This document shows positions 3,268-19,081 of a stretch of DNA of 35,674 nucleotides, one piece after another. Source of the stretch: an uncultured Bacteroidales bacterium (GTDB lineage: Bacteria > Bacteroidota > Bacteroidia > Bacteroidales > UBA932); assembly GCA_900319485.1 (NCBI GenBank), contig ONOQ01000032.1, forward strand, positions 1 through 35,674. The letters are read 5' to 3'. A program made the position numbers and the translations under genes. Under the pieces are notes generated by a model. That model had not been told where the DNA came from. It made no database searches and saw nothing but the letters and a program-made list of their open reading frames with translations. How positions within the stretch are numbered: the first letter of the stretch is position 1; each line of letters opens with the position of its first letter.

Positions 3268-3271
3268 AATG

Positions 3272-3938: not shown

Positions 3939-3968
3939 ATAATACCGCGGAAAATGGATATCGTTACC
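3939..3968 (-). promoter_or_regulatory. Putative alternative-sigma promoter P1 (GGTAACGAT-N14-GTATTAT)
   Basis: On the minus strand GGTAACGAT (3960-3968) is followed by exactly 14 bases and GTATTAT (3939-3945), 22 bases before the ATG at 3916. Four other sites in the window share this layout. No TAnnTTTG vegetative box is present. The 'AAC' -35 core and about 17-base spacing fit ECF-type sigma promoters. Recognition by the sigma-like protein at 19128 is inferred. Confidence 0.75.
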
Positions 3969-4014
3969 TGGAAACTGCCATTATTGCAAGTTTCTTTTGG
4001 GCCATATCATTACA

Positions 4015-5910
4015 CTAGCTGTTATCAGTTGTCAATGGCTTAATGTCCCGGATGATGACTTTTTTAAGGGAATCACATCCGGAGAATGCATATTCGTCTA
4101 TATGGGCATTTGACGGAACGACCGCTTCCTGAAGGCCCTTGCAGCAGGAGAATGCAGATGAACAAATCGTCTCCATCGATGCAGGGAGGTGAATCCTCTT
4201 CAGGTTTCTGCAACCGCTGAATGCACCTTCCCATATCACCCTAACACCTTCCCCCAATGTGACCCCATTAAGAGACTTGCATCCTGAAAAGGACCTTTCG
4301 CCAATGAACTCAACAGTCCCGGGAACAATAATCTTTTTAATGTCATTCCTTCCCTTGAATTCTTCGTCCTTAATCTGGGTTACGTCTTCCTTGAAAGTGA
4401 GCACACCATTTTCATCAAGGGTATAGCGATCTGTCTCCTCAATGGTGGCGACGTCTTTCGGAAACGGTTCCTCCGTCTGTGCTTTTTTCGGCCTTCTTCT
4501 GGGAGCAGACAATATCTTGACGTCCTTTTCGAAAGAATAACTGCCTATATACTCCACAGATTTGGGCATGAAGACATATGTCAGGCCCTTGCAGTACGCA
4601 AAGGCATCATCCCCGATTCTTTTGATTCCGTCAGGCAGGACGATGCCTTCAAGGTTATTGTAGTCCGTCAGGGATACGCCCCTGCTGTTGAATGCCCCGT
4701 CCGCAATCACTGTCGTTCCTTCCCGCACTTCGATGTAAGAATGCTCCGGAAGGTCACCGTGATAGCCGTACAGGATATGACCAAAATAGAGAACGCCCCA
4801 TTTCCAGGAATTGTCCACCAGGACAGTTCTGTGCAGTGCGTGGAATCCGACCTGCTGGACGGAGGCCGGAATCGGCATATAACGGAGGTTCTCACACCAC
4901 TCGAAGGCGGAATTGCCTATCTTCTTCAAGTTGTTTCCCAGGTAAACGTCCCTGAGACGGTCACAGTTTTCGAATGCTGAATCCTTTATTTCCACAACCG
5001 AGTCGGGCAATACAAGGGACTTCATTTTCATCCCATGGAAAGCCTCCCTGTCAATGACGGTGACGGGGTAGGACTTGCCTTCGTATTCCACTTGTGACGG
5101 AACGATAACTTCGCCCTCAACCTTTTCCGCGGGGCGGATGGATGCCCAGGCCCTGTCTGTTTTGATGTTGTAGATGGTGCCAATATAGTTGACTCCGTCT
5201 TCACCCTTGATTTCACACTCTAGTATATTTCCGAATGCGTCTTCACTTATAGTAAGATCTTCCCTGTCGGGGAACTTGAAATTCTGGAGTTTGTCACATC
5301 TGGAAAAAGCACGTGACCTGATGGCCTCAACGGAGTTGGGAATCTTTATCGACTCGAGGGATATGCAACCGCTGAATGCACTCTCGGGGATAACACGGAG
5401 GCCTCTTGGAAGAACCACCTCCCTCAAACTGTCACACCCGCAGAAAACACCGACTCCGAGTCCTATTCCTTTCGGGAGGCTAACCTTTTCAAGGGCATCA
5501 CATCCCATAAATGCGTCATTATTGATTCGGGAAAGCGTCTTGGGAAGACGGAGCCCCGACAGGGAAGCGCAACTCCGGAACGACTCATTTCCGATAGAGA
5601 CAAGCCCTTCGGAGAAATGGATGCGCCTCAGGTTTTCGCAGTGGGAAAACGCATAACTTTCTATCGTTTTCACTGATGGAGGCAGCGTCAGCTCTTCAAG
5701 TTCCCTGAGCCCCATAAAGTTCTCCCTTCCGACTGACTCTATGCCGTCCTCTATCACCAGGTGGCGGAACGGGGCCTTTGATTTGAACGGTACCAGGCTG
5801 CCGTTACGAAGGCTTCCTGATATGGTCAGCACACCGTCGTCGGTTATCGTGTATGTCATCACCGACCCGTCCTTCCAGGTCTTGCGGCCTTTGCTGATTA
5901 TCTTAGCCAT
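4015..5910 (-). CDS. Large LRR_5 (BspA-like) repeat protein
   Basis: The product has 631 residues. It begins with a short beta domain ('GRKTWKDGSVMTYTITDDG', nearly identical to the start of 6809-8401). An LRR_5 block, a linker with 'YEGKSYPVTVIDREAF', a second LRR_5 block and a 'WKWGVLYFGHILYGYHGDLP' segment follow. A C-terminal module from about residue 480 opens with 'ETDRYTLDENGVLTFKEDVT' and ends 'VIIRDIKPLTTDNS'. That module is paralogous to the first 165 residues of the neighbour at 5921-6805. Repeats follow the Treponema pallidum/BspA type (F-x-G-C-x-x-L). No signal peptide, T9SS tail or sorting motif is seen. It is the last gene of the operon starting at 11484. Confidence 0.88.
   Translation of the reverse strand: MAKIISKGRKTWKDGSVMTYTITDDGVLTISGSLRNGSLVPFKSKAPFRHLVIEDGIESVGRENFMGLRELEELTLPPSVKTIESYAFSHCENLRRIHFSEGLVSIGNESFRSCASLSGLRLPKTLSRINNDAFMGCDALEKVSLPKGIGLGVGVFCGCDSLREVVLPRGLRVIPESAFSGCISLESIKIPNSVEAIRSRAFSRCDKLQNFKFPDREDLTISEDAFGNILECEIKGEDGVNYIGTIYNIKTDRAWASIRPAEKVEGEVIVPSQVEYEGKSYPVTVIDREAFHGMKMKSLVLPDSVVEIKDSAFENCDRLRDVYLGNNLKKIGNSAFEWCENLRYMPIPASVQQVGFHALHRTVLVDNSWKWGVLYFGHILYGYHGDLPEHSYIEVREGTTVIADGAFNSRGVSLTDYNNLEGIVLPDGIKRIGDDAFAYCKGLTYVFMPKSVEYIGSYSFEKDVKILSAPRRRPKKAQTEEPFPKDVATIEETDRYTLDENGVLTFKEDVTQIKDEEFKGRNDIKKIIVPGTVEFIGERSFSGCKSLNGVTLGEGVRVIWEGAFSGCRNLKRIHLPASMETICSSAFSCCKGLQEAVVPSNAHIDEYAFSGCDSLKKVIIRDIKPLTTDNS
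5834..5893 (-). repeat. 60-bp near-identical segment, copy A (copy B at 8325-8384)
   Basis: These bases match 8325-8384 at 59 of 60 positions; the single difference (5848 versus 8339) is synonymous. Both lie at the same place in the N-terminal coding part of two LRR_5 genes, while flanking sequence diverges strongly. This points to recent duplication or gene conversion limited to the N-terminal cap. Confidence 0.85.
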
Positions 5911-5920
5911 AAGGAATATA

Positions 5921-6805
5921 TTAATTTACGAGTGGAATCCATTCTATCGTTGATTCTTCAACCATTGACTTGAAAAAAGCCTCATCCGTAAGATATGTAT
6001 GAGTGTCAATTTGAATGGTCTTGGGGGACGCGCCCTTGGGCATATCCACAATTGCGAGACGCTGCTTGTCATACTCCAGGACCTGGCTTACCGGAGGCAT
6101 ATCCCTGAATCCATAGTCCTCGTAGTCCATATAAGGGCCGGAACCCTTGAAGGCTTCCCACAGGAGGTCCTTTACCACCTCGCGGGCATACTCCACAACC
6201 TCCTCTTCTGGCTTCACTCTGATGACAGCCCCATAGAACCGACTATAGACGCGGTGCCCTGATTGTTCGAGAAGGACGACTTTCTGTATTTCTGTCTTGT
6301 TGATACGTGGTTTGATTTCCCGGATGATAACTTTTTCCAAGGCATCGCAGTACTTGAACGGACTCCAGGAATAACCGCACAGGTACTTGCAAACCATTTC
6401 TGCGCCATCCGGCACCACTATCTGTTTTAGGCTCTTGCATGTTGAAAATGCCTCATCTTCAATTATTTTGAGCGTGGAAGGCAGGATGACTGTTCGCAGT
6501 TTAGTACACTTGTAAAACGCATTGGTCTCTATGCGGGTTATCCCTTCTGGGATGTCAATTGAAGAAAGGGATTCGCAGCCGGCAAAGGACCAGAACTTGA
6601 TGAATCTGACTCCTTGTGGTATATTGATTGATTTGAGGCGCTTGCAGCCATGGAATGCAGAGTGCCCGATGGATTGGACCGTACGGGGCAGAACGGCCTT
6701 TGTTATGGTAACGTTATCCTTGAACTCACTGTCAAAGATAGCAGTCACTCCCGGCTTCACAACCAGGACTCCACTTCCATCTATTGTGTATCTATCCGTT
6801 TCCAT
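5921..6805 (-). CDS. LRR_5 repeat protein with unique C-terminal domain
   Basis: The protein has 294 residues. The first 165 are an LRR_5 module beginning 'METDRYTIDGSGVLVVKPGV' with units such as 'IPEGITRIETNAFYKCTKL', closing with 'KVIIREIKPRINKTE'. It parallels the C-terminal module of the adjacent 631-residue protein. Residues 170-294 form a non-repeat domain ('VYSRFYGAVIRVKPEEEVVE', 'TIQIDTHTYLTDEAFF') that I do not recognise. Only 3 bases separate it from the upstream gene and 10 from the downstream one, so it is clearly operonic. No export signal is seen. It may be a split or shuffled version of the neighbour's final module. Confidence 0.87.
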   Translation of the reverse strand: METDRYTIDGSGVLVVKPGVTAIFDSEFKDNVTITKAVLPRTVQSIGHSAFHGCKRLKSINIPQGVRFIKFWSFAGCESLSSIDIPEGITRIETNAFYKCTKLRTVILPSTLKIIEDEAFSTCKSLKQIVVPDGAEMVCKYLCGYSWSPFKYCDALEKVIIREIKPRINKTEIQKVVLLEQSGHRVYSRFYGAVIRVKPEEEVVEYAREVVKDLLWEAFKGSGPYMDYEDYGFRDMPPVSQVLEYDKQRLAIVDMPKGASPKTIQIDTHTYLTDEAFFKSMVEESTIEWIPLVN

Positions 6806-6808
6806 AGG

Positions 6809-8401
6809 TTACTTCTCAATCAGTTTATAGTCTTTCCAGTACTTCGCCCCAGAGTAGGCTTCCATCGATCCCACGGGGATGTATATGACTGCAGATGGAG
6901 GAAATGAATGGTAATCTATTTCGATTGGTTTCTTCCATGGTGCAACAACTTCACATATGCTTGTATAACTGAAGGCATCAGATCCTATATCAACAAGCGA
7001 CTTGGGCAACTTGATATGCTTAAGGTCCCTGCATTCAGTAAATGCGCAGTAGCCGATGTGTTTCATAGTATTGGGAAAGATAACGGCTTCAATGTTACTG
7101 ACTTCGGTGAATGCCCTTTCAGCGATAACCGTTGTGCCTTCCCGGACTTCCAGCCATGAATGTGGTGGAATGTATCCGTTGTAACCGCAGAGAACATGGT
7201 CAAGATAAACAGCCCCTTTCCGGTCGTCCAGGACAGGGGTATACTCCAAGGCTCGGCAGCCAAGAGTCGTCAGGGTATCCGGGAAATGGAGTTCTTTGAG
7301 TCTCCCGCATTCGGAGAAGGCTTCCATGCCGATATGCTCAATCGACGGCCCGAGATCAACGGCTTCCAGTTCCTTGCATCCGTCGAATGCCTGTTCGCAA
7401 ATCTGCCGCAATGACTTTCCAAGTTTTGCCACCTTGAGTTCGACGCATTTCCTGAATGCATATTCCTCTATCTTCACAATAGAATCCGGCAGTTGGACTG
7501 ATTTCAATTCCTTAATCTCAGAAAAGGCCTGTGGTGCTATCTCGGTAACCTGGTATTCTTTCCCTTTGTACACAACCTTCTCTGGCACGACAACTTCTCC
7601 ATTGACCAAATTACCATTGGCCGGCGCTATGGATACCGTGTTTACATTGGTTTTAACATTGGAGATCCAGAAATTATATTGATTGCCATCCTCTCCGGTA
7701 ACGGTGTCTCCTTCGTCTGCGCCAAAAGCTTCAAATCCAAGCGAGATGTTTTTGTTGGGCAAAACAATATCCTTCATTTTATCGCTCTGACTAAAAGCGT
7801 ATTTTCCAATACGGTTAAGAGTTTTGGGAAAATTAATCTTCTCCAAGGCGTTGCACCATTTGAACGCCTCATCACTGATGTTCTCCAGTCCACTGGACAA
7901 AACCACCTCCGACAGGTTGTGGCAACCTGCGAAAGCCTTGTATTCAATTACCTTCACGCTACCTGGAATCTTCACTTTTTTGAGGGAATCGCAGCAAAAA
8001 AATGAAAATTGGCTAATTTTCTGAAGACTCTTCGGGAACATCACCTTCTCAAGACTTTTGCACTCGTAGAAAGCCTCCTTGCCAATGGTTTCAAGCCCTT
8101 CCGAAAAATGCACACATTTGAGGTTTGTGCATTTCTCGAAAGCTCTTATCCGGAGAATTTTCACAGAAGGAGGGAGAGTCAGTTCTTCGATTTCTTCCCA
8201 ATAGGAAAAATTTTTGCGGCCAATAAATTTGACTCCATCCTCAATCACCAGATGCCGGAACGGAGCTTTTGAACGGATGTCCACGTAGTCCTCCAACGGC
8301 AGCGTTCCGGAAATGGTTAACACCCCGTCGTCGGTTATTGTGTATGTCATCACCGACCCGTCCTTCCAGGTCTTGCGGCCTTTGCCAACTATCTTAGCCA
8401 T
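6809..8401 (-). CDS. Large LRR_5 (BspA-like) repeat protein
   Basis: The product has 530 residues. The order is N-terminal cap ('GRKTWKDGSVMTYTITDDG'), first LRR_5 block (about 50-235), linker with 'VVYKGKEYQVTEIAPQAF', second LRR_5 block, a segment 'GAVYLDHVLCGYNGYIPPHS', further repeats, and a typical BspA-like end ('VIYIPVGSMEAYSGAKYW'). The plan matches the 631-residue paralogue at 4015-5910 without its extra C-terminal module. No signal peptide is visible. It lies in the middle of the operon starting at promoter 11455-11484. LRR_5 proteins are usually adhesins when exported; these may instead be cytosolic binding scaffolds (inference). Confidence 0.88.
   Translation of the reverse strand: MAKIVGKGRKTWKDGSVMTYTITDDGVLTISGTLPLEDYVDIRSKAPFRHLVIEDGVKFIGRKNFSYWEEIEELTLPPSVKILRIRAFEKCTNLKCVHFSEGLETIGKEAFYECKSLEKVMFPKSLQKISQFSFFCCDSLKKVKIPGSVKVIEYKAFAGCHNLSEVVLSSGLENISDEAFKWCNALEKINFPKTLNRIGKYAFSQSDKMKDIVLPNKNISLGFEAFGADEGDTVTGEDGNQYNFWISNVKTNVNTVSIAPANGNLVNGEVVVPEKVVYKGKEYQVTEIAPQAFSEIKELKSVQLPDSIVKIEEYAFRKCVELKVAKLGKSLRQICEQAFDGCKELEAVDLGPSIEHIGMEAFSECGRLKELHFPDTLTTLGCRALEYTPVLDDRKGAVYLDHVLCGYNGYIPPHSWLEVREGTTVIAERAFTEVSNIEAVIFPNTMKHIGYCAFTECRDLKHIKLPKSLVDIGSDAFSYTSICEVVAPWKKPIEIDYHSFPPSAVIYIPVGSMEAYSGAKYWKDYKLIEK
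8325..8384 (-). repeat. 60-bp near-identical segment, copy B (copy A at 5834-5893)
   Basis: This is the second copy of the N-terminal coding segment shared by two LRR_5 genes. It differs from copy A by one synonymous base, and similarity falls off sharply on both sides. Confidence 0.85.
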
Positions 8402-8461
8402 AATTAACTATTAAAGCAATTCGTTAATACCTTGTCCGGGATTACAATCAAAGCCTGTCAT

Positions 8462-8839
8462 TTAGTCATCGTCATATCCCGTGTCTGTGTAGAAAAAGAT
8501 CTCTTTGGGATCTTGTTGGTCATATTCCAGCACATTATCAACTTCGTCACGATCCACGGGTAAGGACTCGCCACCGCAGTCGACACATAATTGCAACGAG
8601 GGGTCCTGTTGCTGCAACAATTTAAGAATCGTTTCAGCATTTAAACAACAATCCTTGTCAATGAAATCTTCATTGATGCAATCCAGCAGGACCGCCCCAT
8701 CCTTTAGTATTAAGGATTTGACATAGCAGTATGCACTGTTTCCGCTCTCCCAGGGCGCAAGATCTGTATATACTAACGCATTAGGGGTCTCATTGGCATA
8801 CTTGACGAATGATTTCAAAAAGTCACCGACTGTAATCAT
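8462..8839 (-). CDS. Hypothetical acidic protein, 125 residues
   Basis: It reads 'MITVGDFLKSFVKYANETPN' at the start and ends in an acidic tail 'YTDTGYDDD'. No domain is recognised. It contains five cysteines ('SAYCYVK', 'LLDCINEDF', 'DKDCCLN', 'LQLCVDCGG'), including a C-x2-C pair, but no clear zinc-binding arrangement. Its start overlaps the end of the metallopeptidase-like gene by 17 bases, which suggests translational coupling and perhaps a functional link to that enzyme. The 60-base gap to the next LRR_5 gene holds no promoter of either type. Confidence 0.7.
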   Translation of the reverse strand: MITVGDFLKSFVKYANETPNALVYTDLAPWESGNSAYCYVKSLILKDGAVLLDCINEDFIDKDCCLNAETILKLLQQQDPSLQLCVDCGGESLPVDRDEVDNVLEYDQQDPKEIFFYTDTGYDDD

Positions 8840-10166
8840 ATAGTCTTATCATTTTAGCTATCCATTCAGCTGGTTTTGGACCATCCGCCGGTTTGTCTTC
8901 ATATAGCAGGAAATGCACTTTCCCTTTGAAGGAAGCAGCGTACTGCGATAACAAGTCTTTGTCGGATTCAATATAAATCCTTGCACCTTTGGGATCTCTA
9001 CGATAAATCTTGGCATTACCCTTTATCCTACATCCCTTTCGCTCCAAGAATGTGATAACCACATCCATTGGAAGCAAATAAAGATAATCTTTTTGAAATT
9101 GTTTATTATTGCAAACTTCTTCCCAGATAGAAATATCAATACGGTCGATTGTACCGGCCGGACACGAAATCTTCGTTGCACTACGACTTGAACCGACCAC
9201 TTCTTTTATGAAATAGAAACGCTTAGGACGCAGTATCTTGAAAAGGATTGTTTCGCACGTGTACTCGTGAAAAGGATAACTAATGGGTGAGATCATTGAT
9301 TTATAATCTATCACATCATTCCCGGATTCATCAATGCATAGGCAAGACCGATGGAATAAGTCCACCCAGTCTACACAAAAGGTCTTCCTGTCTTCAAACA
9401 AGTGATAACCAAAACCGTAATGACAGATACCAAGAATCGACTTTTTCCTCTTTACGTGTGTTTTTGCCTCTATCAACAACTCGTATTCAGGATGTGTGCG
9501 GTCAAACATCTCCATAAAAAAGAGCATTCCAAACTCCGCGAGAGGCTCTTCTATCTCGGGGATATCAGGATGTGGGATATAATCCATTCCGCCTTCGTCT
9601 TCGTGCATATCGAAATAAGCATGCATCAGCTCGTGGACATATACGATTGCAGTTAGAGCAGTAGGATTTGGCTTTGTCTTGAGAGTTCCCCACATAAGAT
9701 AAATCGTCGGCCTCCCTTTTGGGGTACCATCTTTCTCCCGAACATATTTACCGAGGAGTTCAACGTTAAAAGTAAATACGGTTTTACCTGCCTTGATACA
9801 ACTGGCAATTATTTTTTTGAGAAGACTAATTTTCTCCAAGATTTCACCTAATTCCTCTTGATCTGCCCCGGCTTTCTTCATCTTTTCCAACTCATCCTCA
9901 AGGCGACTCAATTCTTTATTTAACTGGTCCAATGTCACTGTAACATCACGAGTTTCGCTTTCTTTCAGTACAACCTGCACCTTTTCATGAATATCTCCAG
10001 GGATAAATGGCGGATACCCTGTAAATGCATCTACTTCGCGGAGAAGCTTGTCCGTTTCGCCATCTAAGTCCGGCACGCTTGGACTTGCCTTTGTGTAAAT
10101 AAAGGAATCTTCTTTTCTTACAATATCACCTGCACTCCTGCGCTGTATGTCAGTCCAAATACTCAT
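8823..10166 (-). CDS. Putative HExxH zinc metallopeptidase with coiled coil
   Basis: The protein has 447 residues. Residues about 75-122 form a charged coiled coil ('LNKELSRLEDELEKMKKAG'). A catalytic zinc site is visible as 'VYVHELMHAYFD' (H178, E179, H182), followed about 25 residues later by 'EEPLAEFG', whose glutamates could give the third ligand as in gluzincins. The C-terminal 200 residues are an unknown domain ending 'AEWIAKMIRLYDYSR'. There is no signal peptide, so a cytosolic protease is likely. It lies between an LRR-like gene and a coupled 125-residue gene in the operon from 11484. The substrate is unknown. Family assignment rests on the HExxH motif and its context. Confidence 0.75.
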   Translation of the reverse strand: MSIWTDIQRRSAGDIVRKEDSFIYTKASPSVPDLDGETDKLLREVDAFTGYPPFIPGDIHEKVQVVLKESETRDVTVTLDQLNKELSRLEDELEKMKKAGADQEELGEILEKISLLKKIIASCIKAGKTVFTFNVELLGKYVREKDGTPKGRPTIYLMWGTLKTKPNPTALTAIVYVHELMHAYFDMHEDEGGMDYIPHPDIPEIEEPLAEFGMLFFMEMFDRTHPEYELLIEAKTHVKRKKSILGICHYGFGYHLFEDRKTFCVDWVDLFHRSCLCIDESGNDVIDYKSMISPISYPFHEYTCETILFKILRPKRFYFIKEVVGSSRSATKISCPAGTIDRIDISIWEEVCNNKQFQKDYLYLLPMDVVITFLERKGCRIKGNAKIYRRDPKGARIYIESDKDLLSQYAASFKGKVHFLLYEDKPADGPKPAEWIAKMIRLYDYSR

Positions 10167-10191
10167 AACATTATGCTTTATTTGTTAACTA

Positions 10192-10266
10192 TTATTTATC
10201 ATCGTCGAAATACCGGCAGATGCAGTCATCCATCAGGGTTTCCACACTCTCTCCGGGGAAAAGTAT
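10192..10266 (-). pseudogene. Orphan C-terminal fragment of a paralogue of the 11504-11986 gene
   Basis: On the minus strand one frame reads 'ILFPGESVETLMDDCICRYF' then 'DDDK' and stop (TAA at 10192-10194). This closely matches the tail of the protein at 11504-11986 ('DLYPGESVDTLVDKCIFRYF'). The fragment has no start codon and begins inside the stop codon of 10266-11429, in a different frame. It appears to be the remnant of a deleted paralogous gene, and it occupies most of the 99-base gap between the two flanking genes. Confidence 0.75.
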
Positions 10267-11429
10267 CACCAATTAAAATTCCCGGGATACTTGTACTTAT
10301 CTGTCCACTTTGCCACCTTGCCTTCAAGCTTCATTGGATCGGGATACTTTACGGGGTCTAAATGATACAACTTGAAACAGATTTTACGCAGAACCTGATA
10401 AGATATCTTCATACCTTGAGCCGTAAGCCAAGGTCTCTCTTTGAAGAAATCAACGGCATTCCAGAAATAATCCCAACACTGTTCAATAGTTGGCTGATCA
10501 TCTTCCTCAATAGCCTTCTCCAGTTTCTTGAGAACTGTCTTGTACTGTGCCTGAAACTCGTGCTGCTCCTTGATTACACGCTGCCTGAAGTCTTCCTTTT
10601 CCTCAGGGGTCAGCGGGGCGTCCGTGTAGATTTTCCCTCCAACCTTGGCGTGATTCTTTATCTCCGTATATGTTACCTGCCCTTCATTCCCTTGCCAGAT
10701 GAAGTTGCCGCCTACAATCTTTGGAGCACTGTCAATAGCATAAGAAGACAATTTATTATTGGAACAGTCAAAGTCACCGCCTACTTCCTTTGGCCCGAAT
10801 TGCAAGGACTTCAAGTCACAGTCGCGGCAGATGAACGAACCGGAGACCTTCCCGAACTCGTGCCTGAACGTTCCCCTTGGGGCGTCCTTCTTCGTAAGGG
10901 TGATATCGTCATTGACATTTACGGCAAGTCCGATCGTGCCAACCGTAATTGAGTAATCCTCCACGCCATGCTGCTTCATGAACTTGGCGATGGCTTCGGA
11001 TTCGGTGTCAATCATCTGTTCGATATCCTTCTTACTGAACAGGCTCTTCTGCATCTTGTTCAGAATATCGTCACTGACCTCGTCATACCTTTCACCAACA
11101 TCGTACCTGCCTGTCAGTTTCAAGGAGTCGGCATACTCGACGAAGAGTTCCATCAGGTAAGGGCCGTACTGTTCGAGATTCTTGGCATAGACGGCGTTAT
11201 ATTTTTTCGAACCGGGCGTGTAACTAGCAAGATGTCGATATGCATCGCCGGCTTTGCCAGGAGCGACATACTTGTCAATCTCGGCATTGAGAAGGGTTTG
11301 GATATGCTTGATCACATCATATTCCTTCCCGGGTGCCCATTTCTTGTCGAAGTAGGCCTTTATCTTTGCCATTGCAGCCTGAACACTTTCTTTTACAGCA
11401 TCGGACGTGTATTCCTTGTTCCTTCCCAT
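10266..11429 (-). CDS. Protein with phage-type leucine-rich-like repeats
   Basis: The product has 387 residues. The N-terminal half is helical and charged ('VQAAMAKIKAYFDKKWAPGK', 'DDILNKMQKSLFSKKDIEQM'). Residues about 190-265 hold short repeats 'LKSLQFGPKEVGGDFDCSNN' and 'APKIVGGNFIWQGN', the pattern of LRR-like repeats often seen in tailed-phage proteins. A helical C-terminal region follows ('QFKTVLKKLEKAIEE'-like). There is no signal peptide. It is the first gene of the longest operon (11429 down to 4015), with its ATG 25 bases after the -10-like box at 11455-11461. Function is unknown; a recognition role is inference. Confidence 0.8.
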   Translation of the reverse strand: MGRNKEYTSDAVKESVQAAMAKIKAYFDKKWAPGKEYDVIKHIQTLLNAEIDKYVAPGKAGDAYRHLASYTPGSKKYNAVYAKNLEQYGPYLMELFVEYADSLKLTGRYDVGERYDEVSDDILNKMQKSLFSKKDIEQMIDTESEAIAKFMKQHGVEDYSITVGTIGLAVNVNDDITLTKKDAPRGTFRHEFGKVSGSFICRDCDLKSLQFGPKEVGGDFDCSNNKLSSYAIDSAPKIVGGNFIWQGNEGQVTYTEIKNHAKVGGKIYTDAPLTPEEKEDFRQRVIKEQHEFQAQYKTVLKKLEKAIEEDDQPTIEQCWDYFWNAVDFFKERPWLTAQGMKISYQVLRKICFKLYHLDPVKYPDPMKLEGKVAKWTDKYKYPGNFNW

Positions 11430-11454: not shown

Positions 11455-11484
11455 ATAATACCGACCTTTCAGCTTATCGTTACC
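11455..11484 (-). promoter_or_regulatory. Putative alternative-sigma promoter P2 (GGTAACGAT-N14-GTATTAT)
   Basis: GGTAACGAT (11476-11484) and GTATTAT (11455-11461) on the minus strand are separated by exactly 14 bases; the ATG at 11429 follows 25 bases later. The site begins 19 bases after the preceding stop codon. It would drive a seven-gene-scale operon reaching 4015. Confidence 0.78.
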
Positions 11485-11503: not shown

Positions 11504-11986
11504 TCAGTCTTTATCGCCAAAATACCGGAAGATGCATTTGTCCACCAGGGTATCAACGCTCTCCCCGGGATAAAGGTCCTCGTCAAGTTCACTGAATACT
11601 TCTACGACATGGCCGGAGAGGAAGTGCAGTTTGATCAGCCCGTCGCCGTCGTTTTCAGTGGTATAGTATTCCACAGAGTTGCCGTCGAAAAAGAACTCCT
11701 TATTCTTCGGGGTATCACAACCGATGAGGTCGACCGGATAATGCTTTGCCAAGATACCCGGATTCTTTTTTAAAGCGCCCTCACAATCTAAAAGGCTGTC
11801 GATGATTTCGCAGCCTTCATCCACATAGGCGTACACGGTGACATAGCTGCCGGATTTGAAAAGGAGATCCACAAGAGTCCCCTCTTCCTCGTCTTCATAG
11901 ATTGCGTAGGATTCTACCCTAAACCCGTCGAACGTAATCAGTTCGCCTTGCGGGGTTTCCCCGTAAATGTAATTGATGTTTTCCAT
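11504..11986 (-). CDS. Hypothetical acidic protein with internal duplication
   Basis: The protein has 160 residues and appears to hold two copies of one beta-rich unit. The first contains 'ITFDGFRVESYAIYED' and 'LLFKSGSYVTVYAYVDE'; the second has 'FFFDGNSVEYYTTEND' and 'LHFLSGHVVEVFSELDE'. No known family is recognised. It is the last gene of the operon that starts with the DUF2779-like nuclease, 15 bases after the LRR_5 gene. A fragment of a second copy persists at 10192-10266, so the family was once duplicated here. The high Asp/Glu content resembles nucleic-acid mimics or inhibitors, but this is speculative. Confidence 0.75.
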   Translation of the reverse strand: MENINYIYGETPQGELITFDGFRVESYAIYEDEEEGTLVDLLFKSGSYVTVYAYVDEGCEIIDSLLDCEGALKKNPGILAKHYPVDLIGCDTPKNKEFFFDGNSVEYYTTENDGDGLIKLHFLSGHVVEVFSELDEDLYPGESVDTLVDKCIFRYFGDKD

Positions 11987-12001
11987 TAGAAACTGAGTGC
12001 A

Positions 12002-13666
12002 TTATGCAATTGTCACTATCGCTCCAAAAGTGCCAAAGAAACTGTCTTTCCGGTACTCTTCTTCCGTCCCCGCCGACACGTGCAGAGTGATATTTTGTTT
12101 AAACATCCTATCAAAACCTCTGAACCAAGGGGCACGTAGAGTTTGCCACTCGAAGCCGCGATAATTCATGGGGCCACCAGACGGGAGATAGATGTCCCTT
12201 AAATACCCTTTACATTCCTGGAGAGCGCTATAATCCTTGATACTATCGGGTATTTCTATAGATTTAAGGTCTCGACAGGCGGCGAAAGCATTCTCTCCAA
12301 TGGTGGTCACACTGGGAGGAATCTTGATAGAAGTAATAGCACAGCCAAAAAATGCGTTTTTGCCAATGGTGGCCACACCGGAAGGAATCTCTATTGCCGT
12401 TAGGCCGCAAGCATAAAAAGCATTATCATCTATGTGCTCCACACTATTGGGAATCTTTGATGACCTGCACCCGCAAATCAGCGTCTTGCCATCCTTAGAA
12501 AGGAGGCAGTTGCCGTTTGAACAGAAATTCGGATTGCCTTCTTCCACTACGATGGATTCCAGGTTCCTACAAAAGCCGAATGCACATTCGCCTATACGGG
12601 TTACTGATTTCGGTATCCTGATTGATTTCAGATTCTTACATTCATAAAAAGCACGTTCTCCTATGCATTCTAGTGTGTTCGGCAATTCCACCTCAGAAAA
12701 CGAGTGATTCCTGAATTGCTTGTCTTTTATCTCAGGACACTCATATATAATGCACTTGTCATCACATAATTCATACCCGCAGGAACGCTTACCAACAATT
12801 TGTTTCAGCTCTTCATGAGAAACGATGAACTGTGACATAAACGCTTTAACTTCCTTCCGTGCCTCCCGATAAGTCGTGGGGTCCACTCTGCTAGTTGGCG
12901 TTCCATCAGGAAACTTAGCATTATAAACTATTTGGCCATTAGAATCAATTAAGTCATCCAGGGCCCGCAAATAAAAAAGGACCCCATCCTTTGAACGGCA
13001 GATTAAAAACTCATAGTCGTCATCGGCCTCTCCCTCGCTAAGATTAAGTAAACTTTCAAAAACTTCTTTTTCAAGCTTACTCCGTTTGCCATAAACAGTC
13101 AATTCAAAACAGATGTTTCTGTAAAAAAACATTGACTCACCGGTGTCATGCTGATATTGATTATCAAAGAAACACGGAATCAAAAGTTCTCCGTAATCTG
13201 AGACAAAGCCGTACTTCCCGTTCATTACACTTTTGATGATCCAGCCCCGAGTGAAATATGTCGAATTTGGCGTGACGTAATCAAGCACCCTTTCTTGAAT
13301 GATTATCTCCCCGTACTTTGACACAACTGCTGTGGAGGTAAAATACCCGGGATATTCATCCCTGTCGTGCCTAAATACTATCAGCAGGACCCATTTGTTC
13401 TGCTGCGCAATATAAGGATATCCTCCGCTGCTCTTAGTCTTTACATTATACATTTGGGCAATGGCGGCGGATCTGCAGTATTTCTGAACTTCCTCGTCCT
13501 CAATCTCATCAACGTTTCTCAAAAAGGTAACTATATCAGCTTTGACTGCGTTAACCCTTGCAACAACATCATTGATGACGGTTTCTTTATCCTCCCGTAA
13601 TCTAATCAGGGAGGAAAAATCCTTTTCAAATTTATTAATGTTCAAATGGTTAGAATGTATTCTCAT
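12002..13666 (-). CDS. WG-repeat-like and LRR_5 (BspA-like) protein
   Basis: The product has 554 residues. The N-terminal 280 residues contain a coiled start and a WG/KWG-like segment ('NGKYGFVSDYGELLIPCFFD'). From about residue 315 there are LRR_5 units ('IPKSVTRIGECAFGFCRNL', 'IPSGVATIGKNAFFGCAIT') with the BspA-type insert 'NPNFCSNGNCLLSKDGKTLI'. The tail 'NITLHVSAGTEEEYRKDSFF' is the usual end of such proteins. No export signal is seen. It lies 33 bases downstream of the PDDEXK_4-like nuclease gene and 15 bases upstream of an acidic protein gene, so an LRR protein is co-expressed with two nucleases. Function is unknown. Confidence 0.85.
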   Translation of the reverse strand: MRIHSNHLNINKFEKDFSSLIRLREDKETVINDVVARVNAVKADIVTFLRNVDEIEDEEVQKYCRSAAIAQMYNVKTKSSGGYPYIAQQNKWVLLIVFRHDRDEYPGYFTSTAVVSKYGEIIIQERVLDYVTPNSTYFTRGWIIKSVMNGKYGFVSDYGELLIPCFFDNQYQHDTGESMFFYRNICFELTVYGKRSKLEKEVFESLLNLSEGEADDDYEFLICRSKDGVLFYLRALDDLIDSNGQIVYNAKFPDGTPTSRVDPTTYREARKEVKAFMSQFIVSHEELKQIVGKRSCGYELCDDKCIIYECPEIKDKQFRNHSFSEVELPNTLECIGERAFYECKNLKSIRIPKSVTRIGECAFGFCRNLESIVVEEGNPNFCSNGNCLLSKDGKTLICGCRSSKIPNSVEHIDDNAFYACGLTAIEIPSGVATIGKNAFFGCAITSIKIPPSVTTIGENAFAACRDLKSIEIPDSIKDYSALQECKGYLRDIYLPSGGPMNYRGFEWQTLRAPWFRGFDRMFKQNITLHVSAGTEEEYRKDSFFGTFGAIVTIA

Positions 13667-13699
13667 GATAATTAAACAGAGTTAACGTTGAGCATATAT

Positions 13700-15010
13700 T
13701 TAGATAACATCTATCTGAAAAAGAGGTTCCGTTCCATTCACATACACCCGAAAAGCCCATACATTAGATTTAGGATCTTTGTCTCTTAACTGTGTGCTGA
13801 TGTAGTAATCCTGGCCAAGATAGTTGAATGAATAAGGCTTTTCACCCCTGGCCCTATTATATGTAACACCCTCGGGGTCGGTGGAAATAAAACTAGGCCC
13901 GATATGGGTGATTGCCGAGCCATCATCCTTCCGGAGTATTTTATTGAAAGGAGTGCCTTCATCAAGTTTGAACTTGATATACTTTTCTATTATCTGGTAA
14001 GGAGAATACTTTCCTTCACCGTTAACCGTGTAATAATGATTCCCCCTGGCTTTCTTAAGGCCTTCCTTAACTACAGAGAAATCTTTTGCTGCCTCAGCAT
14101 CACCATCATTCGTGGCCTGCTGAATCATAGCCTCTATCGTTGTTTCAAACAACTGCTTATTGCGGTTATAGAATCCAACCAGTAATTCTCTTTCTTCTGA
14201 AGTCATGGCAATTATTTCTTTATTGTTCTTGTTAAACGGGTTCCCTAGATTATGAAGATATGCTTCTATCAAGCTCTTCGCGTTCTCGTCTATATCGTGA
14301 CGCTTCAAAAAATTCTCAAACACATAATCGACCATATCCTGGTAGCTTACCAGAACATAGTCCGGACTGTCACAACGCTTGCAGTCAGGCGTTAGGAATA
14401 CAAAAAGCTGGTAATCAACGTCATCCTTCAATCTGTTCTCATGCTGTTTGCTGCAAGCGTAAAAATACCTTTTTGTCTGCGATAGGGTTTGATAATCCGA
14501 CGGGCATGCCGAGAGGTCCTTCGACTTGGATTTTGCTGCTCCTTCTGCACTATCAACTTTATTCTCTATGATGATTTCCAATGTCTTTTCCTGTTCGTTT
14601 CCCATGTTATCAAAAACAGAAACCACGCAACGGATGAAGACATCAAGCCTGTCGCGGTCGGGAATCTTGGAAAGTTTGTTTATGACGACCTCAGGAGCGA
14701 CAGATACTGTTTTGATGGAATAGGAACCGGTCAAAATGGCGTTTGCAAATGCCTTCATGTCGGATGTCTTGTTCCACCCATCAGACAGGATAGCTTTATC
14801 AGCCTTGTAAATCAAAAGATTCAGCAAATACCTTATGTGAGAATTCTGTGTGATCTTCTGATTGAAAAACCATACAAGGAACGCGCTATGGGATGGTTCA
14901 TAACGCTGAATATCCAGAATTTTCCAGATATTATCCCTCTCGAAGAAAGATTTTACGGCATCATTATCAGGATTAAGATTATATGCCGTAAGCATGTCTT
15001 TAATATCCAT
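13700..15010 (-). CDS. PD-(D/E)XK nuclease superfamily protein (PDDEXK_4-like)
   Basis: The protein has 436 residues. The N-terminal part ('NIWKILDIQRYEPSHSAFLV', then 'WFFNQK') fits the conserved 'N-x-F-x-I-L-G-I ... H-S-x-F-L-A-W-L' opening of PDDEXK_4 proteins. The likely active site is D123 ('RDRLDVFI') and E149-N-K151 ('EIIIENKVDSAEG'), followed by 'DYQTLSQTKRYFYAC'. It probably cuts DNA, but its target is unknown. The frame extends to 15088, yet that part overlaps the upstream gene; ATG at 15010 ('MDIKDMLTAYNLNPD') lies 17 bases after the upstream stop and is preferred. Proteins of this family are frequent in defence islands of Bacteria. Confidence 0.82.
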   Translation of the reverse strand: MDIKDMLTAYNLNPDNDAVKSFFERDNIWKILDIQRYEPSHSAFLVWFFNQKITQNSHIRYLLNLLIYKADKAILSDGWNKTSDMKAFANAILTGSYSIKTVSVAPEVVINKLSKIPDRDRLDVFIRCVVSVFDNMGNEQEKTLEIIIENKVDSAEGAAKSKSKDLSACPSDYQTLSQTKRYFYACSKQHENRLKDDVDYQLFVFLTPDCKRCDSPDYVLVSYQDMVDYVFENFLKRHDIDENAKSLIEAYLHNLGNPFNKNNKEIIAMTSEERELLVGFYNRNKQLFETTIEAMIQQATNDGDAEAAKDFSVVKEGLKKARGNHYYTVNGEGKYSPYQIIEKYIKFKLDEGTPFNKILRKDDGSAITHIGPSFISTDPEGVTYNRARGEKPYSFNYLGQDYYISTQLRDKDPKSNVWAFRVYVNGTEPLFQIDVI

Positions 15011-15027
15011 CTGTATGTGTTGTTTAA

Positions 15028-16947
15028 TTATATCTTTGCCCTTACCGCCCTCAAGATTTCGACCATCGCCCAAGTGTCCTGCTGGCAATAGGTGTGGAGT
15101 GCATCCTGGCGTTCGCTCTTAGTCTTCATTATACCAAACGTAGGCTCAGGAGAATCGTAGTTGAGGTAGGTGATGTAAGCCTGAACGCCATTGCCAACGT
15201 CCATTCCCTTGTATGTGAGCGCCGGCACAAGAACCGGGAGAGTTTTCTTGATGGAGTAACTGCCGGAAAGATCCGGGTGATAGTAGTTGATTCGCTTGGC
15301 CGTATTGACAAACGCGTCTTTATAGAATTCCTCTTTGGTCTTCAGCAGATCAATCAGGTCGGCGGACTTGTCGCGGATAGCAAGGAGTTTCTTTGCGTAT
15401 TTAGGATAAAGGACAGCTAACTCTTCGAGACGTCCCCTCTCAAAGGATGTATTCTGGGCAAGCATGGTGCCATGGAGCGTTCCGTCCTCATTAAACTCGA
15501 AATGGTCGATGATAGCCTTGGCAAGTTCCTTGCGCTCATCGTCATCAGAATTTTCATTGAGGAAGATATAGTTGTCCTTATACTTATCACAGACTCCGGG
15601 GTCTCTCTCAATATGGAGGGAGAACTCAAACACTGACTGCCGGTAAGGTGTCTCTCCACGGAAACGCGGCAGAGGGCAGGGGAAAGATTCAAAGTCGAAG
15701 TGATAGATGGGGTACTCAAGCTGATCAAACCAATACCGCATCTTCTCCTTGTCTACCCACTCTTCCCCGTTGTCATAACAATCCCGCTGGATTATATGAT
15801 TCTCATTCGTCAGCCATGGTACTCGAACATCATCGAATTTCCAGTACTTTTCATTAATAAGTTGATATTTATCTTTGATATCGCCCTCTTTAAACCCACG
15901 GAAGTTGATGTAGTTGTTAGCCCGGTTGGAGTTAGGGACACTGCGGAGTTTCTGGAAGCAGTGTTTCCAGAACACACATTCCGTGTTCTTACCCCAGGCG
16001 CAGAAGCACCCAACGGGGACCTTCTTACTCACATCGTGTGGAGTAGAAATATAGCTTTCAAGCGTGGCAATCTCGCGAAGGACTATCGACTGATATGCCT
16101 CAGTGACCTCATTCAGATCCAGGAAAGTGATAATCTCCTGGCCATCGTTCTCATTATATAGGCAATTGCCATCTGCATCGCGTGCATCATCATAGACGTA
16201 CTCACTGTTGAGGACAGCAAGATAGAAGTTTACCGGCCGGTTGTCACCGGAGTTACGCAACGCATGTTCAATTACAAATCTCTGGAAGGCAAGGTCATGA
16301 GGGTACTTCCCAACATCGGAAAAGCGGTCAAAAAGCGATTTCTTCTTTTCCTCGAAACTCTTTGCAGCACCATCACAGACCATACTGTCGGCAACGTTGA
16401 AGTGCCAGAAATTGCCATCTTTGACCAATAAGTCAAACTTGCTGCCGCCTCGCGTTCCATCCGAGAAGAAGAGCCCCGTATCTTTCCCGTTTTTGTCAAG
16501 CCGATGGCGATACTTGCTATTGGTCGTTGCCTTCACCTCGATGATGTTAATCTCATCATCGTTTTCGTTGTAGATATCCACGTAGCAACGGTAAGTATGT
16601 CCGTGGAGTCCGTACTCAAAGAGTTTCTGATTATGTACATCCCTGGAATCTGCGACAAAAGTGCCCTTGAAATACTTCCTGGCGACCTTTAATGCCTCGT
16701 CTTCAACCTTATTGTAATAGGGAAGAAGGGCCTCAAGTTCTGCGCTGGGAGAAGCGTCAAATACTTCTTCCTCTTCACCTGCAGAGCCTGAAGATTCGGC
16801 GCCGTCCCGCATTTCTTCAAGCATCTCAGCGCGACGTTCGCGTTCTGCGTCAATGTCGTCTTTCCCAGTAGGATTATGTTTCAAATCCATGGGAAAATAC
16901 ATAGGACAACGTGTCCAGTTGATGAATCTTGATTTTGAAACGAACAT
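15028..16947 (-). CDS. DUF2779-like dual nuclease: Fe-S PD-(D/E)XK plus RNase H-fold exonuclease domain
   Basis: The product has 639 residues. The N-terminus 'MFVSKSRFINWTRCPMYF' and the cluster C314, C316, C324, C330 ('GCFCAWGKNTECVFWKHC') with C14 resemble Cas4/AddB-type Fe-S nucleases. D124 ('CYVDIYNEN') and E137-V-K139 ('IIEVKATTN') fit the PD-(D/E)XK site. A C-terminal DUF2779-like domain has a DEDD pattern: D418/E420 ('YHFDFESFPCP'), 'LAQNTSFERGRLEEL', D530/D533 and D624 ('YCQQDTWAM'). It is the first gene of its operon, followed 17 bases later by a second nuclease. It likely processes DNA or RNA in the cytoplasm; biological role unknown. Confidence 0.85.
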   Translation of the reverse strand: MFVSKSRFINWTRCPMYFPMDLKHNPTGKDDIDAERERRAEMLEEMRDGAESSGSAGEEEEVFDASPSAELEALLPYYNKVEDEALKVARKYFKGTFVADSRDVHNQKLFEYGLHGHTYRCYVDIYNENDDEINIIEVKATTNSKYRHRLDKNGKDTGLFFSDGTRGGSKFDLLVKDGNFWHFNVADSMVCDGAAKSFEEKKKSLFDRFSDVGKYPHDLAFQRFVIEHALRNSGDNRPVNFYLAVLNSEYVYDDARDADGNCLYNENDGQEIITFLDLNEVTEAYQSIVLREIATLESYISTPHDVSKKVPVGCFCAWGKNTECVFWKHCFQKLRSVPNSNRANNYINFRGFKEGDIKDKYQLINEKYWKFDDVRVPWLTNENHIIQRDCYDNGEEWVDKEKMRYWFDQLEYPIYHFDFESFPCPLPRFRGETPYRQSVFEFSLHIERDPGVCDKYKDNYIFLNENSDDDERKELAKAIIDHFEFNEDGTLHGTMLAQNTSFERGRLEELAVLYPKYAKKLLAIRDKSADLIDLLKTKEEFYKDAFVNTAKRINYYHPDLSGSYSIKKTLPVLVPALTYKGMDVGNGVQAYITYLNYDSPEPTFGIMKTKSERQDALHTYCQQDTWAMVEILRAVRAKI

Positions 16948-16996
16948 GTGGCCTTAATTTAAGCGATAAATTTAACAATTTTTCCTTTCCCCTCCA

Positions 16997-17026
16997 ATAT
17001 TATGCATTTATTTTAATATCGTTACC
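16997..17026 (-). promoter_or_regulatory. Putative alternative-sigma promoter P3 (GGTAACGAT-N14-ATAATAT)
   Basis: GGTAACGAT (17018-17026) is followed by 14 bases and ATAATAT (16997-17003), which matches GTATTAT at 5 of 7 positions. The ATG at 16947 lies 49 bases further on, a longer leader than at the other four sites. The 130-base gap it sits in holds no other recognisable signal. Confidence 0.68.
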
Positions 17027-17077
17027 TGCTCAGATTGGGGACTTTAGGTGATTTTTGAAGGATAATAAACCGTTTTC

Positions 17078-17545
17078 TTACTCATCATCGAGTCCGGGAT
17101 ATTCAAAATGAAGAGTCATAATTGCATCCTCTGTTTCCACGGAAAACTTATAACCGACATAAAGAAGGAAAGCAGGAATACAAGACTTCAGGTCTTTATA
17201 TGTTGCCTTGTCAAAGGTGAGCTTCCTATAAGATGGATTGGTCATTGCAGCAACAATGTTGACACTCCTGTCATAATCATTGAAATAGAGACTGTACATC
17301 CTCTCCCTGTCTTTCTTCCACATAATCCACTTGTATGGGAACATCTTCCTGATGAACTTCGGGAGTTTGAACCAGAAAGTGATGGGCTTGCGGATGGCAA
17401 AGTGACCATAGCCGCCATAACCGCGGGCATTCACGATGACGCCCTTATACTGCTTACGGAATTCAGTATCGAGTGCTTCCTCGAAATAAACAGAGTGAGA
17501 ACTGGTGAAGCAGTCAAACATAATCCTATTTTCAGTATTTCTCAT
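17078..17545 (-). CDS. Hypothetical protein, 155 residues
   Basis: No domain is recognised. The protein is rich in aromatic and basic residues ('GYGGYGHFAIRKPITFWFKL', 'PYKWIMWKKDRERMYSLYF') and ends acidic ('FEYPGLDDE'). A moderately hydrophobic stretch (about 125-138, 'IPAFLLYVGYKFSV') is probably a buried beta hairpin rather than a membrane helix. It is third in a three-gene operon with two small paralogous proteins, starting 18 bases after the stop of 17564-17800. An alternative start lies at codon 9. Confidence 0.7.
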   Translation of the reverse strand: MRNTENRIMFDCFTSSHSVYFEEALDTEFRKQYKGVIVNARGYGGYGHFAIRKPITFWFKLPKFIRKMFPYKWIMWKKDRERMYSLYFNDYDRSVNIVAAMTNPSYRKLTFDKATYKDLKSCIPAFLLYVGYKFSVETEDAIMTLHFEYPGLDDE

Positions 17546-17563
17546 TGCAATATTTACTATCTG

Positions 17564-17800
17564 CTATAAGGAATTAATCAAATCTGACTTCGTGGGAAAC
17601 AGTTCATCTTTCCCATGCAAACCGGGCAGCGGTTTATCGCTGACGGAGAGAGTATACGACTCGTGCTCAATGACCGACTCGTAATTGGCGCTGCTGATAA
17701 ACTTCTTGTAGGATACCTTGGTAACTGTGGCGCAAACTGCAAGGTTCCCATGCATCAGCCATACATTGTCGCCGACAGCATATGTGATTGTCTTTTTCAT
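17564..17800 (-). CDS. Small beta-rich protein, paralogue of 17802-18008
   Basis: The product has 78 residues with 'YAVGDNVWLMHGNLAVCATV' near the start and 'ELFPTKSDLINSL' at the end. It aligns with the upstream neighbour, which has 'YDIKDNVWLVNENKAVRMFV' and 'KLFKTKEELLASL'. The opening resembles an SH3-like or KOW-type beta barrel, as in small nucleic-acid or peptide-binding proteins, but this is only a visual match. The stop of the neighbour and this ATG are one base apart, so they are translationally coupled. Confidence 0.75.
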   Translation of the reverse strand: MKKTITYAVGDNVWLMHGNLAVCATVTKVSYKKFISSANYESVIEHESYTLSVSDKPLPGLHGKDELFPTKSDLINSL

Positions 17801-17801
17801 A

Positions 17802-18008
17802 CTAAAGAGATGCCAAAAGTTCTTCCTTTGTTTTAAACAACTTATTCTCGGGGATTTCGCAGAGCGAATAATTCAAGTCGTATTTCACGTCATGGCTGTC
17901 GGGGTCCGTAAAGGTAACCACCAGGCCCGTGACGAACATTCTTACTGCTTTATTCTCATTGACAAGCCATACATTGTCTTTGATGTCGTATTTTGTTTTG
18001 GCTTCCAT
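17802..18008 (-). CDS. Small beta-rich protein, paralogue of 17564-17800
   Basis: The product has 68 residues starting 'MEAKTKYDIKDNVWLV'. The frame can be extended to a TTG at 18035, but that would start inside the -10-like box at 18035-18041. ATG at 18008 sits 26 bases after that box, matching the other operons, and is preferred. It shares the 'DNVWL' core and the C-terminal 'LF-x-TK' pattern with the following gene, so the two arose by tandem duplication. Function is unknown. Confidence 0.75.
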   Translation of the reverse strand: MEAKTKYDIKDNVWLVNENKAVRMFVTGLVVTFTDPDSHDVKYDLNYSLCEIPENKLFKTKEELLASL

Positions 18009-18034
18009 AATACATTTGTAGTTGCTTTCTGACA

Positions 18035-18064
18035 ATAATACGGAACGATTATCCTATCGTTACC
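18035..18064 (-). promoter_or_regulatory. Putative alternative-sigma promoter P4 (GGTAACGAT-N14-GTATTAT)
   Basis: GGTAACGAT (18056-18064) and GTATTAT (18035-18041) are 14 bases apart. The site starts 16 bases after the stop of the LRR_5 gene 18081-19028. The sequence between that stop and the box (TTTTTCTCGGG...) resembles the one before P2. It would drive the two small paralogues and the 155-residue gene. Confidence 0.77.
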
Positions 18065-18080
18065 CACTTCCCGAGAAAAA

Positions 18081-19028
18081 TCAGAATGGAAGTTCGTACG
18101 GATCTTTCGGGGCTGGCTCTAATTTGTCCGGAATCACTATCTCTTCCGGAACATAGATGCTTGAAACATCAGCGCCGAGATACTCCACGGTGCTTGGAAT
18201 CTTGACCCATTCTCTGCGCCCGCATTTGGCAAAGGCATGCGAACCGATGCTCTTCACAGAAGCCGGGATTGTAAGGTCTTCAAGGTTATGGCATCCACAG
18301 AAGGCATAGTGGCCGATAGATGTCACCGTGTCGGGAAGCGTGAAATTGCTTAAGATGGGGCACTTAAAGAAAGTGCCGTCGGCAATATGCTCCACAGAAC
18401 TGGGAATATTGATTGACCAGAGGTTTATGCAATGAGCAAAGGCCCCTTTGCCGATGTGGGAGATGCTTTCTGGCAGCGTTACCATCCTGAGAGCCGGGCA
18501 ATGAGAGAATGAATCGTCGCCGATCTCTGTCAAAAGTCCATTATCTGAGAAGGTTAGTCTTCTCAATGAGAGACAGCCATAGAAAGCCCTGCTGTTTATG
18601 CTCTTAACAGACAGCGGAATATGGATGGCCGCCAATTCCTCGCACCATTGGAATGCCGACCTGGCGATTGTTTCTACTTTGTCAGGAATTACGGAGAATT
18701 TGCATCCGAACACCAGTGTTTTTCCATCCTTCGTCATGCAGCAGTTCGATTCGGATTTGTATGCTGGATTATCCTCTGCAACTCGTATTGTTTCAATCCC
18801 TGGACACCCGAGAAATGCCCCAGGCTCGATAGTCGTGACGCCGGCTGAGATTTCTACAGAGGTGAGTCCCCAGCAGTCATAAAAAGCCTCATTGTGTATG
18901 CACTTGACCGATGATGGGAGAGAAACCTCCTTCAGTTTGTCGCAATTCGAGAACGATCTGCTTTGGAGCTCCGTTACCCCTTCCGGAATGACGCACTTGC
19001 CGTCAATAATTTCAAATTTTTGTTTCAT
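18081..19028 (-). CDS. LRR_5 (BspA-like) repeat protein
   Basis: The product has 315 residues and consists almost entirely of LRR_5 units from residue 10 onward ('LPSSVKCIHNEAFYDCWGL', 'IPSSVEHIADGTFFKCPIL', 'LPDTVTSIGHYAFCGCHNL'). A BspA-type insert 'NPAYKSESNCCMTKDGKTLV' lies near residue 90. It starts 'MKQKFEIIDGKCVIPEGVTE', with no signal peptide, and ends in a Pro-rich tail 'EPAPKDPYELPF'. It is a single-gene unit with its own copy of the shared promoter, directly divergent from the sigma-like gene at 19128. It is therefore the closest candidate partner or sensor for that factor, by position only. Confidence 0.87.
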   Translation of the reverse strand: MKQKFEIIDGKCVIPEGVTELQSRSFSNCDKLKEVSLPSSVKCIHNEAFYDCWGLTSVEISAGVTTIEPGAFLGCPGIETIRVAEDNPAYKSESNCCMTKDGKTLVFGCKFSVIPDKVETIARSAFQWCEELAAIHIPLSVKSINSRAFYGCLSLRRLTFSDNGLLTEIGDDSFSHCPALRMVTLPESISHIGKGAFAHCINLWSINIPSSVEHIADGTFFKCPILSNFTLPDTVTSIGHYAFCGCHNLEDLTIPASVKSIGSHAFAKCGRREWVKIPSTVEYLGADVSSIYVPEEIVIPDKLEPAPKDPYELPF

Positions 19029-19051
19029 TGTTTCCTCTGTTATTTCAACAA

Positions 19052-19081
19052 ATAGTACTGTTGTCTCAGTCCATCGTTACC
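19052..19081 (-). promoter_or_regulatory. Putative alternative-sigma promoter P5 (GGTAACGAT-N14-GTACTAT)
   Basis: GGTAACGAT (19073-19081) is followed by exactly 14 bases and GTACTAT (19052-19058), 23 bases before the ATG at 19028. It faces away from the sigma-like gene and shares a 99-base divergent region with that gene's vegetative promoter. Confidence 0.75.

Follow-up and report, generated by a model that had tools for sequence, protein, structure and literature searches.

The window analysed here is a 35,674-nt stretch of DNA, one whole contig (ONOQ01000032.1) of the 2.5-Mb draft genome of an uncultured Bacteroidales bacterium (GCA_900319485.1; 91 contigs, 93.5% complete). Five copies of the bipartite motif GGTAACGAT-N14-RTANTAT on its minus strand are probably the promoters of one dedicated alternative sigma factor, for which the divergently encoded protein P0001 is the candidate, and they would define a private regulon of 17 genes on an island. 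GGTAACGAT would serve as the -35 box and GTATTAT as the -10 box; GGTAAC and GTATTAT are separated by 17 bp. P0001 would be expressed from a TAnnTTTG promoter of the vegetative type, together with an ADP-ribosyltransferase (ART)-like protein and a NADAR-domain protein of the same operon, and once it is active RNA polymerase would transcribe the five operons. The products would be leucine-rich-repeat (LRR), DUF2779, PD-(D/E)XK nuclease-like and small proteins, and, judging from the draft genome, little else. Computation established the sites, their restriction to this locus, the fact that they recur in relatives with conserved geometry and unrelated spacers, and the presence of sigma-like genes near most of them.

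Motif sites in the window

19052..19081, minus strand: putative promoter 1, with GGTAACGAT at 19073-19081, a 14-nt spacer and GTACTAT at 19052-19058; heads the LRR_5 gene at 18081-19028
18035..18064, minus strand: putative promoter 2, GGTAACGAT-N14-GTATTAT; heads the small genes from 18008
16997..17026, minus strand: putative promoter 3, GGTAACGAT-N14-ATAATAT; heads the DUF2779 gene from 16947
11455..11484, minus strand: putative promoter 4, GGTAACGAT-N14-GTATTAT; heads the operon from 11429
3939..3968, minus strand: putative promoter 5, GGTAACGAT-N14-GTATTAT; heads the operon from 3916 to the contig end

An AAC in the -35 box, as found here, is typical of extracytoplasmic function (ECF) promoters. 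All five copies, which an earlier note on this DNA had located together with their exact 14-base spacing, match the motif without mismatch, and each stands immediately 5' of an operon. Start codons lie 43, 46, 70, 47 and 44 nt past the end of GGTAACGAT, so that the distances of 43-47 and 71 given in that note hold to within one base; from the end of the second box the distances are 22, 25, 49, 26 and 23 nt. All five sites fall 15-50 nt before a gene start, a zone that covers about 3.7% of the minus strand from 2.4 to 19.1 kb. If up to three mismatches are tolerated, 10 matches are found in the window, whereas 100 dinucleotide shuffles gave 0.97 on average and never more than 6. Every minus-strand gene group from 19028 as far as the contig end does have a site at its head; together these groups comprise 17 genes, 16 of them complete and the last truncated where the contig ends. 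A TAnnTTTG box is present at none of the five. This agrees with the proposal of a local regulon of about 17 genes behind a shared non-vegetative promoter.

The motif is confined to this locus. Its exact pattern occurs five times in the whole draft genome, always in the window (reversed control, 0), and the observation that there is no other copy is thus true for exact copies. No copy with one mismatch was found in the draft genome; the eight places with two mismatches all lie on other contigs, and up to three mismatches give 85 places, while the reversed control gives 57. One further place elsewhere in the genome, on C28, was added when the first and last bases were relaxed. Loci with the same promoter recur in nine other genomes.

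Recurrence of the promoter in relatives

We searched 299 family genomes for the motif with a second box made slightly looser, and 400 genomes of the genus for a shorter form of it, and inspected the contigs of all the matches. The family scan gave 13 matches in 6 of the 299 genomes (reversed control, 7 single matches) and the genus scan 26 matches in 16 of the 400 (reversed control, 8 matches in 7 genomes). Nine other genomes of the family share the promoter. In eight of them sites precede the window's gene families: six sites in G293, three in G793, two each in G134, G898 and G688, one each in G984 and G990, and, in G707, one exact site and one with one mismatch (at 1949), the latter lying by our own reading about 23 nt upstream of the gene that corresponds to the one following promoter 5. 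The ninth, G860, has one exact site before a MoxR-type ATPase gene and four more with one first-box mismatch and a spacing of 14, which span about 8 kb and of which one lies 24 nt before a ClpP gene; its motif locus is no LRR locus. The earlier expectation of matches limited to LRR-type loci near the same sigma gene was therefore borne out in part: a sigma-like gene does lie near most of them, but the G860 sites precede MoxR-type ATPase and ClpP genes. Over positions 1512-9513 of the G860 locus (L036) the same promoter and sigma family are found, with ClpP and a MoxR-type ATPase followed by a VWA-like DUF2201 gene as apparent targets.

Single exact matches in G064, G253 and G068 (family scan) and in G989, G782, G700, G881, G910, G717 and G1006 (genus scan) were treated as chance because of the matches that the reversed controls gave. 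Of the ten, seven fall within an open reading frame, and no comparable locus surrounds any of them.

In the window and the eight genomes with its gene families, the geometry of the promoter is conserved. An ATG lies 21-29 nt past the second box at 19 of 22 sites and 45-49 nt past it at the other three, all of which belong to DUF2779 genes. These sites were found by their first box, whose constancy in the set is a selection effect. When spacers of 13-15 and one first-box mismatch were allowed, the spacer was 14 in 26 of the 27 matches, which fell in ten loci, and 13 in one; the contigs labelled negatives in this spacer scan had themselves been picked for motif matches and are no control. Two sites with GTATAG as second box (G793 2338 and G898 1007) fall outside the rule of the spacer scan and are counted only in the 22-site geometry set. 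The G860 site at 7731 was left out of the 22-site column counts, and the G134 site at 15568, with a spacer of 13, is one base out of register in them.

Between sites of the same genome, identity is 33% in the spacers (30 pairs) and 28% in the upstream flanks, both near random. That boxes, spacing and ATG distance are fixed while spacers and flanks are near random points to selection on the promoter and not to recent copying. It is thus highly improbable that the motif is no promoter but a repeat spread by duplication, or the end of a mobile element, even though LRR genes and some of their neighbours are indeed duplicated in the window.

A sigma-like gene family beside the promoters

A two-domain sigma-like gene of one rare family lies near sites at five loci, those of G293, G134, G688, G898 (where it is truncated and keeps its first part alone) and G860. 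It is divergent from the first promoter in G134, G688 and G898; another gene lies between them in G293, and in G860 it is about 0.9 kb from the exact motif site. The G134, G688 and G293 proteins gave E=1.5e-5, 0.032 and 0.36, respectively, with the sigma70-ECF profile TIGR02937, and none of them reached its curated cut-off of 42.9 bits. With a structure model of the G293 protein (predicted local distance difference test, pLDDT, 51.2), Foldseek ranks 1-17 were all transcription-complex or sigma/anti-sigma entries (E 0.15-1.9), the chains of which we take to be sigma subunits from the entry titles and the usual chain letters. The small chain of 3hug (RslA/-35-binding-domain complex) reached a template modelling (TM) score of 0.70 on the target.

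A profile built from the G688, G293 and G134 proteins was run on 17 genomes, all motif-bearing (16 of the genus scan and G134), and its result bears on such genomes and says nothing about genomes without the motif. It detected two new members, the truncated G898 gene and the G860 gene, and none in the seven genus-scan genomes with a single match judged as chance, nor in G000, G707, G793, G984 and G990. Among 270 genomes of the genus, a four-member profile found only G293, G688, G860 and G898, all flagged earlier by the motif scan. This match is not independent, as the profile was built from three of the four genomes found, together with G134, and the search is informative because no fifth genome appeared. 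An N-terminal query of 79 residues retrieved only G293 and G134 from the 299 family genomes. With the sigma alignment A1, the GTDB genome collection returned only two known loci, in a scan by exact peptide patterns that would miss distant copies. No relative was found in plasmids with the G293 sigma query, or in viral contigs with the sigma alignment and an 18-letter motif pattern.

P0001 and its operon

19102..19109, plus strand: TAAATTTG, a vegetative-type (TAnnTTTG) box, 18 nt before the P0001 start
19128..20396, plus strand: P0001, an orphan protein of 422 aa, candidate sigma factor, with a putative sigma2-like region at about 56-103, a putative sigma4-like region at about 150-232 and a C-terminal domain at 276-412
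20412..20948, plus strand: ART-like protein (ART-PolyVal; E=3.7e-6, below the curated cut-off), 15 nt past P0001 on the same strand
20951..21556, plus strand: NADAR-domain protein (E=1e-16), directly after the ART-like gene

An exact TAnnTTTG box precedes six of seven sigma-type genes, 18-21 nt from the ATG in five and 34 nt in G860; the broken copy in G990 is without one. The box is found at none of 26 regulon sites, and in the whole window it occurs 22 times on both strands. The sigma gene thus appears to be read by the housekeeping polymerase and the regulon by a private sigma factor. The sigma gene's own TACCTTTG is overlapped by the -35 box in G134 and lies 20 bp from it in the window, an arrangement that would make negative feedback possible. 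No anti-sigma factor was recognised among the window proteins scanned, a set that excludes the two smallest genes (17564-18008). Candidates for the control of P0001 are its C-terminal extension and the ART-NADAR pair.

P0001 occupies the same divergent slot, with the same ART-NADAR neighbours, as the sigma-like gene of G293, and a broken P0001-type copy stands in this slot in G990. The other sigma family has no member in P0001's genome. Residues 55-111 of P0001, one of four chosen fragments, matched TIGR02937 with E=0.0024, under the cut-off, and hhalign against the sigma family aligned only residues 198-232 and, in a second run, 80-103, which are the places of regions 4.2 and 2. From its position and these weak partial matches, and not from significant homology, we infer that P0001 is likely to be the cognate sigma factor; the positions of the transcription starts and a control of activity by the C-terminal domain or by partners are predictions. 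The suggestion of an ECF-type sigma factor made in the earlier note holds as far as a sigma-like gene is nearby and the pairing recurs elsewhere. Sites with the two boxes, -35 and -10, expected of an ECF-type promoter, at a fixed distance from each other, also lie near the gene. However, the ECF type is not established: P0001 has no significant sigma-70/ECF profile match and as a whole no sigma-family match, and its counterparts score under the cut-off.

Several results weigh against P0001 as a sigma factor with its own promoters. It has no Pfam match, and neither the whole protein (Pfam and NCBIfam), nor its first 241 residues, nor its region-4 fragment gave a sigma match. Compared with the other sigma family, it gave hhalign E values of 0.58 and 0.2, which are not significant, and shuffle z scores of 1.24, 0.76 and -0.04; in a profile null, 292 of 1759 were at or above the real score. 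Its structure model is unusable (pLDDT 35.6), that of the counterpart is weak with a best Foldseek E of 0.15, and PDB sequence searches found no sigma factor. The second-box consensus plus two bases is TATTATTG, one base from TAnnTTTG. Finally, G707, G793 and G984 (58, 83 and 73% complete) have the promoters but yielded neither kind of sigma gene, and in G984 the contig spans the expected slot with the sigma gene missing there.

Since TATTATTG is one change from the vegetative box, some room is left for a model with an activator, which we consider unlikely. The vegetative sigma factor would then read TATTATTG as a degenerate -7 box, GGTAACGAT would be a class II activator site replacing the -33 box, and P0001 would be the activator. 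By our own count TAnnATTG is present in full at 6 of the 22 sites, and the lack of significant sigma homology in P0001 is compatible with such a role. However, the fifth base of the box is A at 19 of the 22 sites and G at three (one of them out of register, with the spacer of 13), and never the vegetative T, in line with the absence of TAnnTTTG from the 26 sites. Moreover, P0001's positional counterparts score, weakly, as sigma factors, and GGTAACGAT is a single non-palindromic box at the -35 position with fixed spacing.

It also seems quite improbable that the promoters are served by a sigma factor whose gene lies elsewhere in the genome, with another role for the neighbouring gene. Such a situation is suggested by G984, G707 and G793, with their promoters and no detected sigma gene, and by G990 and G898, where promoters are kept beside broken sigma-type genes. 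Against it, the motif is absent from most sampled genomes, the sigma family was found only in motif-bearing genomes in the samples searched, and the exact sites are confined to the window locus. The sigma slot is truncated in G898 (L031, 103-1119), internally deleted in G990 (L028, 845-1120) and empty in G984 (L026, 9737-9763), with the promoters kept. A sigma locus that decays or is swapped seems to be the case among these three genomes.

Returning to P0001 as the dedicated sigma factor, an improbable extension would be an exchangeable sigma cassette. The slot of the sigma-ART-NADAR operon would be filled by either of two unalignable sigma types serving the same promoter, and the ART and NADAR proteins would, through reversible ADP-ribosylation, turn the sigma factor or RNA polymerase on and off and in this way release an intracellular LRR regulon of a defence- or conflict-like kind. 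The ART-PolyVal-like and NADAR gene pair (20412-21556) is also present in G293 and, by eye, in G984. In the window it is possibly a toxin-antitoxin pair or a regulatory ADP-ribosylation pair.

No other full-length relative of P0001 was found in the 299 family genomes or in 393 genomes of the order, where P0001 itself was the only hit, and none in phages or viral contigs. Residues 276-412 recur with 48% identity in a separate G134 protein (299 family genomes). The window protein at 8826-10166 and the G134 protein at C63:10658-11176 (L008) have a near-identical leader, MSIWTDI.RRS.G...RKED; the former carries the HELMH motif (zinc-peptidase-like) and the latter P0001's C-terminal domain.

Genes of the putative regulon

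18081..19028, minus strand: unit 1, LRR_5 protein (profile match)
17078..18008, minus strand: unit 2, two small proteins (from 18008 and 17800) and a 155-aa protein
11504..16947, minus strand: unit 3, DUF2779, PDDEXK_4 nuclease-like, LRR_5 and 160-aa proteins
4015..11429, minus strand: unit 4, a 387-aa protein, a 447-aa protein with the HELMH motif, a 125-aa protein and three LRR_5 proteins
1..3916, minus strand: unit 5, a 214-aa protein and two LRR_5 proteins, of which the last is truncated at the contig end

By eye, no signal peptide was seen in the LRR proteins of the regulon. A run of aspartate/glutamate codons made of 9-base repeats lies inside an LRR_5 gene (1868-2053).

Relation to known systems

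Locus-specific sigma factors with a gene beside the genes served and a small local regulon are known from the TcdR/BotR/UviA group. The window system, with its candidate sigma gene, differs from this group in its phylum and in its target genes.

ECF sigma factors of Bacteroidetes include EcfO and SigP, and B. thetaiotaomicron has 50 (PMC12596196). Like these, the system described here has an alternative sigma factor, here a putative one, encoded near its targets, an AAC in the -35 box and two conserved domains. Unlike them, the window protein and its counterparts have no Pfam or ECF match above cut-off and carry a C-terminal extension, and no anti-sigma, SusC/D or stress genes were recognised at the window locus. 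The motif published for SigP differs from that of the window (PMC4800418). Vegetative sigma-ABfr promoters have TAnnTTTG at -7 and TTTG at -33 (PMC7366714). The second box of the window is close to the former, but the regulon sites have A or G as fifth base and never T (22 sites), have GGTAACGAT in place of TTTG, and keep a fixed spacing. In DarT-NADAR toxin-antitoxin operons an ADP-ribosyltransferase gene adjoins a NADAR gene (PMC11125620), as here; in the window, in contrast, the transferase gave a match below the cut-off to ART-PolyVal and none to DarT, and a sigma-like gene precedes the pair.

That an alternative sigma factor is encoded next to its targets is already known, for instance from ECF factors of Bacteroides (PMC12596196, PMC7366714). 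What is new, within the reach of our searches, is a sigma-like family that has no dedicated profile in the libraries used, the promoter that goes with it, a 17-gene regulon confined to an island, and a slot with two versions that show no significant alignment. The open-access papers searched gave nothing relevant on the motif letters, on LRR/BspA proteins with sigma factors, or on sigma factors on islands matching the window system. If our reading is correct, a sigma factor family of uncultured Bacteroidales, of which one relative comes from buffalo rumen, has been missed by the profile libraries searched, and its promoter can already be read from the DNA. It would also give a handle on large unexplained LRR clusters, which here appear to form one co-regulated programme on an island that seems to bring its own on-switch, and the promoter could serve as a direct reporter for finding the inducing signal.

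Other observations

Genes for an ABC transporter and for a small PqqD-like, a signal-peptidase-like and an HPr-kinase-like protein stand in a row, by eye, at 25931-29184 of the window, as in peptide-modification clusters. Next to them, at 29178-32180, is a gene that by eye is UvrA-like, with proline/glycine-rich repeat-like insertions. In the G293 cluster (L018), a transposase-like gene, also recognised by eye, is inserted at 14493-15662.

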